Source: Bacteroidales bacterium
GTDB lineage: Bacteria; Bacteroidota; Bacteroidia; Bacteroidales; UBA932
Length of the DNA stretch: 49,777 bases
Assembly: GCA_017451395.1 (NCBI GenBank)
Contig: JAFSPR010000097.1
Coordinates: 1 to 49,777 of the forward strand
Direction: 5' to 3'
Shown: positions 46,864 to 49,388 of the stretch, in pieces
Numbering within the stretch: the stretch's first letter is position 1
Layout: every line of letters starts with the position of its first letter
Program-made: the position numbers and the translations under genes
Notes under the pieces: generated by a model
Told to the model about the DNA's origin: nothing
Seen by the model: the letters and a program-made list of their open reading frames with translations, nothing else
Database searches by the model: none

Positions 46864-46911
46864 CAGTCCCACATCCTGCCTTGGTGGTGGAATGGTAGAC
46901 ACGAGGGACTT

Positions 46912-47642
46912 AGAGAAGCTCTTTGAAATAATTATTTGTAATACACGAAATTAATTATTAAATTCGTGTTTGCCATGAAGAAGAAATGTCAATATACTCA
47001 GGAAGACGTGCAAAAGGCTGTTGCCAACAATAAGTCAATAGCTGGAGTGCTAAGAGATTTGGGATTAAGACCTATCGGAGGGAACTACAAAACTGTTCGT
47101 CATCTGATTAAGAAACACAATCTGGACACCTCGCACTTTACGGGGCAAGGATGGAATGTCGGGTTAAAATTTAATCCAAAAGTAATAATCTCCAATGATC
47201 AAATATTTGTTTCAGATTCCTCATATAAGTGTTCATGGCGGCTTCGCGAAAGATACAAGTCTGCACTTGGCATCAATTATTGCGAAGACTGCCATCTTTC
47301 TGAATGGCAAGGGCAACCAATTCCGTTAGAGATTCATCATATTAATGGGATTAACACAGACAATCGAATCGAGAATCTAAAGCTTCTTTGCCCAAATTGT
47401 CACGCCCTCACAGGTAATTACAGAGGAAGAGCAAAATTGAGTGCACTCTCTGAAAAGAGAGATGTAGAATGCCGTAAATTCAAGGAAACCATAACGGGTA
47501 ACGCCGATGGCAATCTTGAGCCAAGCCTTTGAGAGAAGGAAGGTGCAGAGACTAGACACGGCACACCTAAAGAGCATAGCTCCAAGGTGAAGGAATAGTC
47601 CAGACCACAAACAGAAATGGTGGCGAAAGCCATAGTGGTAAG
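46912..47642 (+). ncRNA. Group I self-splicing intron with HNH gene
   Basis: A 731-base intron with a recognisable group I core. P1 is probably GGACTT (exon end) with AAGCTC (46916-46921). P2 is a hairpin ACACGAA/TTCGTGT before the HNH gene. P3 is TGCCGT (47470-47475) with ACGGCA (47558-47563). P4 is CCAT (47489-47492) with ATGG (47507-47510). P7 is GACTA (47550-47554) with TAGTC (47596-47600). P8 is CACCT (47564-47568) with AGGTG (47585-47589), plus an inner GAGC/GCTC. P9 is capped by a GAAA tetraloop (TGGCGAAAGCCA). The terminal base is the expected G (47642). The segments AAATTCAAGGAAACC, GGCAATCTTGAGCCAA and GGTGCAGAGACTAGA closely resemble the conserved core of chloroplast/cyanobacterial trnL introns, placing it in that subgroup (IC3). 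Folding was done by hand. Confidence 0.92.
46975..47532 (+). CDS. HNH homing endonuclease encoded in the intron
   Basis: A 185-residue protein, presumably a homing endonuclease that spreads the intron into intronless trnL alleles. The HNH zinc/metal site is complete: Cys103-x2-Cys106 (YCEDCHLSE), then LEIHHINGINTDNRIENL with His121-His122 and the Asn, then Cys139-x2-Cys142-His143 (LCPNCHAL). The N-terminal ~60 residues look like a helix-turn-helix (YTQEDVQKAVANNKSIAGVL, then IKKHNL), a likely DNA-recognition part. I prefer the ATG at 46975; a GTG three codons upstream is possible. The gene lies between P2 and P3, and its last ~20 codons (from about residue 166) run through the P3 5' strand, P4 and P6 to a stop at 47530-47532. 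So one sequence must serve both protein and ribozyme. Confidence 0.93.
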   Translation: MKKKCQYTQEDVQKAVANNKSIAGVLRDLGLRPIGGNYKTVRHLIKKHNLDTSHFTGQGWNVGLKFNPKVIISNDQIFVSDSSYKCSWRLRERYKSALGINYCEDCHLSEWQGQPIPLEIHHINGINTDNRIENLKLLCPNCHALTGNYRGRAKLSALSEKRDVECRKFKETITGNADGNLEPSL

Positions 47643-47699
47643 AAAATCCCTTGGCCCGAAACGGCCGTGCGGGTTCGATTCCCGCCCGAGGCACGCCAG

Positions 47700-47900: not shown

Positions 47901-49388
47901 TTACCAGTTTCTCTTCTCATCAATTATTTGTAATACTTCATCCCGATCCTGATGGATATTCGCTTCGTTAAGTATATACTCAAAAGCATTTATGATATCT
48001 TCGCGTTCTACTGTGTCAATAAAATTGGACCGATGATCAAGCTTATTGAAACCTTCAACATAATCAACAGCTATGCTTTTAATGATAGAGATATCAATTC
48101 CTTCATTATTCGCTTCTTCTAATACGCGGCGACGGGCTTCCTTCCATAAAGCCAAAGACTTGGTATACATTGACTTGGGCACAAATTCACTGCCGTCCCA
48201 ATGCCGCAGAGGATTATTCATGTTTTCCTGAAGCCAATCGTCGGAGCGTAGTTTTAAAACCGACAAATCTTGAGTTGTGGCTTTAAACACTTTCTTAATA
48301 GCCTTTCCGGCCTCTGCGGGAATGCTTTCTATCCAAAGATTTCTCAGTTCCGGCAAATCCTTGGGACGAGGAAAATCATCGGCCGAAAAACCAAACAGAT
48401 CATGCATCGTCAAAGTTTCAATTTCGTGAAGCTTTGATATTTCGGCAACATCGTGTATATGCCCGGGCTTCCCTGTCAGCCCTAACCATATGAGGCCGGG
48501 GAAACGGGCTGGAATAATCTTTAAGCTAAAATTCCTGATATTGGAAAGGACAAGGTTGGTCAGTCTTTTCAAACCGACATCGGGCAAAAAATCATTCTGC
48601 AATTCAACTCGCAGAACCATAAAGAATCCATCATTTTGAGAATGAACACGAAGTGCCGGAGACAATTTCCCTCTTAGGGTTAAGCTACGAATACTGGATG
48701 GCAGGAGAATACTTTCAATACTTTCTCCGCTGATTTCCAGGTTCGTCAGGTGGGTTAAGCTTAAATCAACCACCCTTCTTGTACAATTGTCCCATATTAA
48801 CTCCCTGACAAGGTATCTGCGTTCAAGAAATGGAATTAATTGAGGATAATCTTCATATGTAATGATTCTTCCTAAAGCCGGAAGGTTATCTAATTCGGAG
48901 AAGTCAGAAAGAGATTTGAGTATATCATCTCCGATTCCGGAAATGCATTTGCTCACTTTCTTACCAGCAATGAGTATGGTCTTTCTTGTCTGTGTCAGGG
49001 CTTTTTTAAATGCCGAAGTCTGATCTTTTGGTAGTTTGTTCCAGCTCTCATTTCCTTTCTGCAGCGTTCCATCGGGCCAGTTGCCATACCGATTGCACTG
49101 TTTAAAACGTCTTATGCCCATATTCCCTATCAGCTTTGCACGAGGAGGGAAACAATTATATGGAGCCCAACAAGGACAAACCTCATTATTGTAATAATAC
49201 TGATTGGGCAAGAGATATGTCATTTGTTTTAAATCATTTTCCGTAGGCATCTGATCACTCCAATAATCCAGATCTGCGTAGACGGCACTCTCTTCGCTTA
49301 ACTGAATGATCTGGAAAGCAAACCACTTTCCTGTCTCTCTTTCTTGGAGCGCATATACATCTCCGGCCTGTAATGATAGCTGCTTCAT
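47901..49388 (-). CDS. Leucine-rich cargo protein of unknown function
   Basis: A 495-residue cytoplasmic protein (no signal peptide or membrane segment), the only gene of the mini-element. Residues ~1-110 form a domain starting LSLQAGDVYALQERETGKWF and YADLDYWSDQMP, which faintly recalls the Imm26 immunity fold. Residues ~190-370 carry irregular leucine-rich strands (VVDLSLTHLTNLEISGESIE, SSIRSLTLRG, LKRLTNLVLSNIRN, LPELRNLWIESI). The C-terminal ~100 residues are helical and charged. I do not recognise a named family; an interaction or immunity role is only a guess. The base composition is clearly more AT-rich than the chromosome. A consensus promoter lies 33 bases upstream. Transcription runs toward the tRNA. 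Confidence 0.85.
   Translation of the reverse strand: MKQLSLQAGDVYALQERETGKWFAFQIIQLSEESAVYADLDYWSDQMPTENDLKQMTYLLPNQYYYNNEVCPCWAPYNCFPPRAKLIGNMGIRRFKQCNRYGNWPDGTLQKGNESWNKLPKDQTSAFKKALTQTRKTILIAGKKVSKCISGIGDDILKSLSDFSELDNLPALGRIITYEDYPQLIPFLERRYLVRELIWDNCTRRVVDLSLTHLTNLEISGESIESILLPSSIRSLTLRGKLSPALRVHSQNDGFFMVLRVELQNDFLPDVGLKRLTNLVLSNIRNFSLKIIPARFPGLIWLGLTGKPGHIHDVAEISKLHEIETLTMHDLFGFSADDFPRPKDLPELRNLWIESIPAEAGKAIKKVFKATTQDLSVLKLRSDDWLQENMNNPLRHWDGSEFVPKSMYTKSLALWKEARRRVLEEANNEGIDISIIKSIAVDYVEGFNKLDHRSNFIDTVEREDIINAFEYILNEANIHQDRDEVLQIIDEKRNW

Follow-up and report, generated by a model that had tools for sequence, protein, structure and literature searches.

The usual view of tRNA introns is that they are ancient features of bacteria and plastids. 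I-SspI, reportedly described by Bonocora and Shub in 2001, is said to be encoded in a tRNA-fMet group I intron of Synechocystis and to be specific for the anticodon region. For phages, a 2014 review states that all phage introns then observed resided in protein-coding genes, despite the many phage tRNA genes (PMC3984707). Collaborative (trans) homing has been put forward as a way in which composite mobile introns could form (Zeng et al. 2009; Bonocora & Shub 2009; both as cited in PMC3984707 and PMC10448857). In PMC10448857, the origin of collaborative-homing arrangements is called unclear, and turnover of homing endonuclease genes (HEGs) is offered as an alternative.

The locus described here is located in a 49,777-nt stretch of DNA from an uncultured Bacteroidales bacterium of the gut (hereafter the window). 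It carries an intron that is like the cyanobacterial trnL introns in its host gene, in its insertion site between tRNA positions 34 and 35 (34/35) and in the kind of its core, and that additionally encodes a nuclease.

A split tRNA-Leu(UAA) gene with an HNH endonuclease gene in its intron

With introns allowed, ARAGORN called one class II tRNA-Leu(UAA) at 46878–47694 with a 731-nt intron at the 34/35 junction, which bears out the first-pass annotation in that both exons form a single class II tRNA broken between U34 and A35. The intron extends from 46912 to 47642 and its final base is G. Without the intron option, no tRNA was called across the whole window. A local scan with RF00028 (Intron_gpI) matched the intron core at 47428–47624 (50.0 bits, E 1.5e-11), so that the proposed group I identity is backed by a significant covariance match; this score equals the family gathering score exactly (50), and the intron escaped detection when the entire window was scanned under default filters, making the local scan necessary. 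The core strings, GAAA-capped P9 and terminal G that had been claimed are all present. In the window's own genome (2.15 Mb, 81% complete), this intron is the sole RF00028 match, and a query with the joined exons found no intact second tRNA-Leu(UAA), its next tRNA matches being Leu(CAA) and Leu(GAG). The observation of a split tRNA-Leu(UAA) gene is hereby confirmed, and its features (all on the + strand) are as follows:

46878..46911, +, tRNA-Leu(UAA) 5′ exon, ending at U34 (ACUU) (ARAGORN -i)
46912..47642, +, group I intron of 731 nt, terminal G at 47642 (RF00028, 50.0 bits; ARAGORN)
46975..47532, +, HNH homing endonuclease ORF of 185 aa, in the P1 loop (PF13392, E 4.1e-6; phrog_10822, E 7.5e-46)
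47439..47442, +, internal guide sequence GAGU, P1 3′ strand (motif in 35/35 complete family introns)
47442..47466, +, P2 hairpin (47442–47451 / 47456–47466), also coding (covarying pairs)
47470..47475, +, P3 5′ strand, within the ORF (pairs with 47558–47563; compensatory change in 2/6 pairs)
47480..47519, +, P4 (47480–47485 / 47514–47519) and P5 (consensus fold)
47520..47546, +, P6, with the ORF stop codon at the P6 loop (consensus fold)
47550..47554, +, P7 5′ strand GACUA (predicted pairing with UAGUC at 47596–47600)
47558..47563, +, P3 3′ strand (consensus fold)
47564..47589, +, P8 (covarying distal pairs)
47596..47600, +, P7 3′ strand UAGUC (pairing with the P7 5′ strand)
47620..47633, +, P9 with GAAA loop (consensus fold)
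47643..47693, +, tRNA-Leu(UAA) 3′ exon (ARAGORN)

The consensus fold contains 51 predicted pairs, with compensatory (double) changes in 21 of them. Across tRNA-Leu introns of every origin, 109 of 114 have all five P7 pairs in standard form (taking the best downstream match), and in 17 introns of this set GACUA/UAGUC is replaced by the variant GACUU/AAGUC. The guide GAGU is predicted to pair with the exon sequence ACUU (including a U34-G wobble). Among the complete introns from the window's bacterial family (see below), the guide motif GAGUG and the final G are each found in 35 of 35, where the guide count reflects that the alignment rows were cut at the same motif. The window intron, a candidate for subgroup IC3, probably resembles the Azoarcus and Anabaena introns.

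The first-pass annotation overlooked the 185-aa HNH ORF within the intron, whose product, as a homing endonuclease, would explain the intron's spread. The ORF is intact from its ATG (46975) to its stop codon (ending at 47532), and an in-frame GTG is located upstream at 46966. Its product scores above the cut-off for PF13392 (HNH_3) and has the phage family phrog_10822 as its best family match, while residues C103, C106, H122, N134, C139, C142 and H143 are invariant in a 23-row alignment of the nuclease (A3). Since the ORF is placed between the 5′ splice site and the guide at 47439, which starts 527 nt after this splice site, it constitutes a P1-loop insertion. Moreover, its last ~30 codons double as the P1 3′ strand, P2, the P3 5′ strand, P4, P5 and part of P6. 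The nuclease is under purifying selection, with a dN/dS of 0.087 for the pair L001/L019 and a median of 0.087 (maximum 0.182) over the six of 66 pairs with usable dS, dS being saturated for most pairs. These low values indicate that the nuclease has been kept functional, at least recently.

As a separate observation, the 15-mer AATTATTTGTAATAC occurs twice in the window, i.e., at 46930–46944 (within the intron ORF's leader) and at 47922–47936 (in the next gene); this duplication of AATTATTTGTAATAC may be due to chance in AT-rich DNA.

Occupied and empty tRNA-Leu(UAA) genes in the bacterial family

RF00028 matches were found in 40 of 299 genomes of the window's family (own genome included) and in four of 295 genomes of its order, two of those four belonging to the same family. 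The 40 family loci include 35 complete tRNA-Leu(UAA) introns at the same junction, as well as two loci (L014 and L047) in which the same intron core is interrupted by contig ends. Once shifted ARAGORN labels had been corrected, i.e., the labels Ser(aga), Ser(tga) and Phe(aaa) that at some loci were interpreted as shifted calls of the CTT/...G/AAAA junction, all 35 complete copies were located at 34/35. One family genome (G216) carries a different group I-like core with no tRNA-Leu call (L049:1519-1670). Two further candidates (L051 in G005 and L052 in G179) gave weak RF00028 matches of 27.7 and 24.1 bits with no tRNA and are likely chance matches; by eye, they read as lying inside a sufB coding sequence.

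The 35 complete introns fall into three states. The HNH ORF is present in ten of them (705–731 nt), deleted remnants of it are found in two (L026, 429 nt; L030, 305 nt), and the nuclease is absent from 23 (212–271 nt). Counted among the latter is L004 (271 nt), which yielded zero nuclease match and merely has a 39-nt P1 loop.

Empty sites were found within the genus of the window. The joined-exon search gave matches in 122 of 151 same-genus genomes, and four of these genomes (G1088, G1013, G272 and G1023) carry the identical 85-nt tRNA uninterrupted. In many other same-genus genomes among the matches listed, the joined exons match as one or two halves. An intact tRNA-Leu(UAA) was called at 29 of 30 fetched same-genus loci, the remaining one ending at a contig edge. 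Both the split and the uninterrupted form are present in G1045, which is possibly explained by the 5% contamination of this genome.

In six intron-bearing genomes that are at least 94% complete (G084, G207, G245, G290, G293 and G295), no near-identical full-length tRNA copy was found, the best match to an uninterrupted copy being of half length. This bears on the reading of the locus as a pseudo-tRNA in decay that is not spliced and carries the nuclease as a passenger, for which an RF00028 score merely at the gathering threshold might speak. Given that the exons form one tRNA, that the core is conserved with compensatory changes, that the nuclease ORF is under purifying selection, and that neither the own genome nor these six yielded another copy of the gene, we consider such decay barely credible.

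A protein search with the nuclease in 199 family genomes gave matches in six, one of them weak. The HEGs of G107 and G177 are 52–53% identical to the query. They belong to a second, divergent tRNA-Leu(UAA) intron with an HNH gene in its P1 loop, found in the same genus (L332 and L333); these introns measure 747 and 756 nt, have a different core, and were assigned to tRNA-Leu(UAA) after label-shift correction. For G107, no RF00028 match was reported in the 299-genome family sample.

Bacteroidales of the gut and rumen also have the intron type of the window, one example being Candidatus Cryptobacteroides onthequi (L104). In the Bacteroidales MAG Tb.RUG.384 (L125), the 3′ part of the window intron is present, identical by eye in the stretch compared; RUG presumably denotes a rumen genome. 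As a side observation, seven of eight matching genomes of one Bacteroidota family (f156) each have two or three RF00028 matches, of which one or more exceed the cut-off.

Relatives of the nuclease and of the intron in phages

An initial search of viral sequences with the window protein yielded five loci amid phage tRNA genes; at L038, an intact tRNA-Leu(UAA) is followed directly by a free-standing nuclease gene. IMG/VR was then scanned with a profile of the nuclease, and the best 80 of at least 549 confirmed candidates were evaluated. Among these best 80, the nuclease is located inside a tRNA-Leu(UAA) intron in 22, at no more than 111 nt from (or overlapping) an intact tRNA-Leu(UAA) in 38, and at a distance of –3 to 57 nt from a tRNA-Leu(UAA) that is interrupted by an intron of 196–218 nt lacking an ORF in 11; five of the remaining nine adjoin another tRNA-Leu. 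The 80 loci collapse into 67 clusters at 90% identity. Of the 36 free-standing clusters that contain two or more tRNAs, 27 have Leu(UAA) as their nearest intact tRNA, vs. 8.1 expected if each tRNA of a locus were equally likely. As a control, restricted to the viral set, the rules for accepting a split tRNA-Leu recovered 32 of 80 real sequences and none of the 80 reversed or 400 shuffled ones; the rerun of this control required the P7 motif near the 3′ end, by which L221 was dropped. The latter locus has a 285-aa phage HNH ORF that spans nearly the whole of a 945-nt intron and has an extra Cys-rich C-terminal part (L221:1998-2855).

The position of the nuclease within the viral introns varies. 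Of the 22 intron-borne nucleases, 14 are located on the 5′ side of P4, and 13 of these 14 can be placed in the P1 loop since the guide GAGUGC comes after the nuclease, as in the window; the stretch inspected for L295 did not show the guide. Four others occupy the P6 loop in sense orientation (L261, L285 and the near-copies L286 and L288), and four occupy it in antisense (L249, L254, L284 and L287). In the related free-standing pair L271 and L293, the neighboring tRNA is intact in the one vs. split by a 198-nt intron in the other, and the alignment of both loci breaks at the tRNA.

In a collection of annotated phages, 235 records match the nuclease. Of 15 distinct phages inspected, the nuclease adjoins a tRNA-Leu in eight (Leu(UAA) in two of them, i.e., Rhodococcus phage Francesca and LR745208), is near other tRNAs only in four, has no tRNA close by in two (Dulem virus 42 and Cursive), and is inside an intron in one. 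The latter (LR756511, L204) is a 595-kb uncultured phage in which a 700-nt intron in tRNA-Leu(UAA) holds the nuclease in its P6 loop in sense orientation; RF00028 did not report this intron, whose assignment comes from the split tRNA and the core motifs. In the 735-kb huge phage LR756501 (L336), tRNA-Leu(UAA) has a group I-like 205-nt intron with no nuclease match within a 5-kb stretch. Such tRNA-Leu(UAA) introns of phages bear on the above-mentioned statement of the 2014 review that all phage introns then observed resided in protein-coding genes (PMC3984707). Separately, Dulem virus 42 gave a match to permuted tmRNA below threshold (L205:1941-2332; 37.4 bits vs. a gathering score of 47).

On plasmids, a protein search gave one weak nuclease match. 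Matches to the intron core were observed on 14 plasmid records, from Bradyrhizobium, E. coli and Salmonella (H82-H91 among them).

The intron of one viral locus, L222, is of particular relevance for the window (see below). L222 is a 101-kb contig. Six phage records, namely Bohxovirus, Dulem virus 42 and four cr-named ones, match an ORF that adjoins its intron. In cr273_1, filed in Crassvirales, an intact tRNA-Leu(UAA) precedes the homologue of this neighbor gene, and a neighboring HNH gene of L222 matches cr118_1 (Crassvirales) with 73% DNA identity. crAss-like phages infect Bacteroidales. A terminase was found in eight of 19 viral records tested, such records often being fragments, and not in that of L222; most of the phage evidence consists of uncultured contigs.

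A tree of the HEGs was built from 94 of 121 loci, with 27 partial, near-duplicate, remnant or poorly matching ones omitted. All 12 type A bacterial HEGs fall into a single clade (SH-aLRT 100), and those of L332 and L333 group at 92 with the phage loci L223 (intron-borne) and L224 (free-standing). Throughout this tree, free-standing, P1 and P6 forms are intermixed, and a single clade of all P1 HEGs is rejected (p 0.006). A single clade of all 14 bacterial HEGs is compatible with the data (p 0.77) and reaches a likelihood above that of the free quick tree. Because this constrained tree fits better, both bacterial lineages may share one origin, and two separate bacterial acquisitions are not proven.

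The intermixing of forms, together with the two deleted HEGs in bacterial introns that demonstrate loss, might also indicate a reverse series, in which intron-borne nucleases came first and were lost or replaced, and free-standing copies appeared later (cf. the HEG turnover that PMC10448857 proposes for other phages). Nevertheless, free copies next to an intact tRNA-Leu(UAA) form the largest class (38 of the best 80) and occur throughout the tree, and several intron-borne forms are scattered among the free ones in different loops and on different strands, which makes this reverse order unlikely, though deserving of some weight.

The intron-core tree (106 rows, ~190 columns) is unrooted and has long branches. 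In it, the 46 type A Bacteroidales introns, i.e., the window clade, form one clade (98/97) that is sister to the intron of phage L222 (97/92). Phage L220 and four cyanobacterial trnL introns join in the next larger set (95/94), the cyanobacterial placement being unsure because of a branch length of 2.04. Chitinophagia introns group with a different set of phage introns (99/96), and alphaproteobacterial and acidobacterial introns are separate. The earlier core tree had omitted L221 (no P7 motif in the scanned tail) and the near-duplicates L232, L233, L286 and L288; the final tree also omitted L192, L291, L254, L295, L249, L223, L058, L173 and L003 (short, divergent or long-branched). It kept four of six cyanobacterial Leu(UAA) calls, two being lost to the motif search, and two further cyanobacterial loci had been called under a shifted label. 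HEG presence (12 rows) takes 11 changes within the type A clade, a number as low in 172 of 500 shuffles; this scatter fits loss and regain and is not evidence by itself.

The trnL type assigned by the first-pass annotation stands, but membership of the cyanobacterial and plastid lineage is not established; in the core tree, the window clade is sister to a crAss-like phage intron. A core string of the window intron that spans P7, P3 and P8 is also present in introns of tRNA-Arg(CCU), tRNA-Met/Ile(CAU) and tRNA-Leu(UAA) genes from Proteobacteria, Acidobacteria and others. The earlier interpretation is partly supported and understates the case, which is that of a phage-linked, nuclease-bearing mobile intron. 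As a separate observation, a record titled Candidatus Pacearchaeota (L053) has a tRNA-Asn(GTT) call with a 258-nt intron that contains a group I core string.

The tree also bears on the proposal that the window intron is an old, vertically inherited ORF-less trnL intron of the cyanobacterial/proteobacterial kind, in which the HNH gene arrived late and locally and contributes nothing to spreading. ORF-less introns do predominate (23 of 35), trnL introns are also found in Alphaproteobacteria, Acidobacteria, Chitinophagia and Cyanobacteria, and the cyanobacterial ones fall within the 95/94 set containing the window clade. Such descent nevertheless appears improbable in view of the patchy presence of the intron (40 of 299 genomes in the family and four of 295 in the order), the identical empty genes within the same genus, the loss demonstrated by the partly deleted HEGs of L026 and L030, and the grouping of both the window clade and the Chitinophagia introns with phage introns.

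Proposed assembly and transfer of the element, and comparison with known systems

Phage relatives of the nuclease are located within or next to this tRNA gene, which points to phages as the agents of the element's assembly and spread. We hold it highly probable that the window contains a mobile tRNA-Leu(UAA) group I intron whose nuclease was already dedicated to its target in phages, and which was assembled by collaborative homing and transferred by phages. The data establish the anatomy of the locus, selection on the nuclease, the existence of empty alleles, the linkage to tRNA-Leu(UAA) and the phylogenetic grouping, and from these we infer splicing, cleavage specificity, the order of stages, and the direction and route of transfer, as follows. 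Upon folding of the pre-tRNA, P1 would pair the 5′ exon with the guide ~530 nt downstream, and the ribozyme would self-splice to yield a normal tRNA. The intron-encoded HNH protein would target tRNA-Leu(UAA) genes that lack the intron, cutting or nicking them close to the anticodon; repair templated by an intron-bearing copy would then insert intron and nuclease together. In phages, the nuclease family would have been dedicated to tRNA-Leu(UAA) before entering introns, residing free by an intact gene, by an ORF-less split gene, or within the intron, and composite introns may have arisen more than once from such parts. Phages, crAss-like ones included, would then have brought composite introns into Bacteroidales, where the nuclease likely decays once the target is filled, leaving an ORF-less intron.

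The opposite direction, in which phage contigs took introns and HEGs from Bacteroidales chromosomes, has in its favor that direction is unreadable from the unrooted tree, where L222 and the bacterial clade are simply sisters. It is nonetheless quite unlikely, since viral HEGs are far more diverse and occur in a far wider range of arrangements (P1, P6 sense and antisense, and free), and the 12 type A bacterial HEGs form a single clade.

With assembly and spread by phages as the preferred reading, a broader one appears reasonably probable, namely that one HNH family is dedicated to tRNA-Leu(UAA) across phages and has entered the trnL group I intron repeatedly, that group I introns are common in phage tRNA genes, and that phages, crAss-like ones among them, seed bacterial chromosomes with tRNA introns. 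Repeated entry (into P1, P6 sense and P6 antisense) from the free-standing state next to the same gene would mean that each step by which a mobile intron comes into being has been preserved. Few natural series exist for how ribozyme introns gain mobility and reach bacterial chromosomes. Here, empty genes, free nucleases, ORF-less and composite introns, and deleted remnants are found for a single target, and each step is biochemically predictive. For tRNA introns, this offers a phage route.

A literature search found no reports of this system, and as subscription journals were mostly outside its coverage, this negative is not proof of novelty. The components are of known kinds, and we regard the element as a new variant in its combination of parts, in its isotype-dedicated HNH family and in its series of intermediates, none of which was met in that search. 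The phrog_10822 entry itself is annotated as HNH endonuclease only and records no link to tRNA-Leu(UAA) or introns.

In comparison with the known systems, the fetched cyanobacterial trnL introns are 212–300 nt in length, and thus too short to hold the nuclease, and sit on a long branch, whereas the window intron has an HNH gene in its P1 loop. I-SspI is reportedly likewise encoded in a tRNA intron but differs in the tRNA concerned and in belonging to the PD-(D/E)XK family. The SegB protein of T-even phages is similarly a free-standing homing endonuclease tied to phage tRNA genes; however, it is a GIY-YIG enzyme with no isotype preference reported in its description, while the family of the window is HNH and mostly found at tRNA-Leu(UAA) (PMC13096335). 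Finally, collaborative homing, as portrayed in the sources cited above, shares with the present series a free-standing nuclease next to an ORF-less intron and one conserved target (11 of the best 80 viral loci), but here this target is a tRNA gene, and the free, beside-intron and inside states all occur within one nuclease family.
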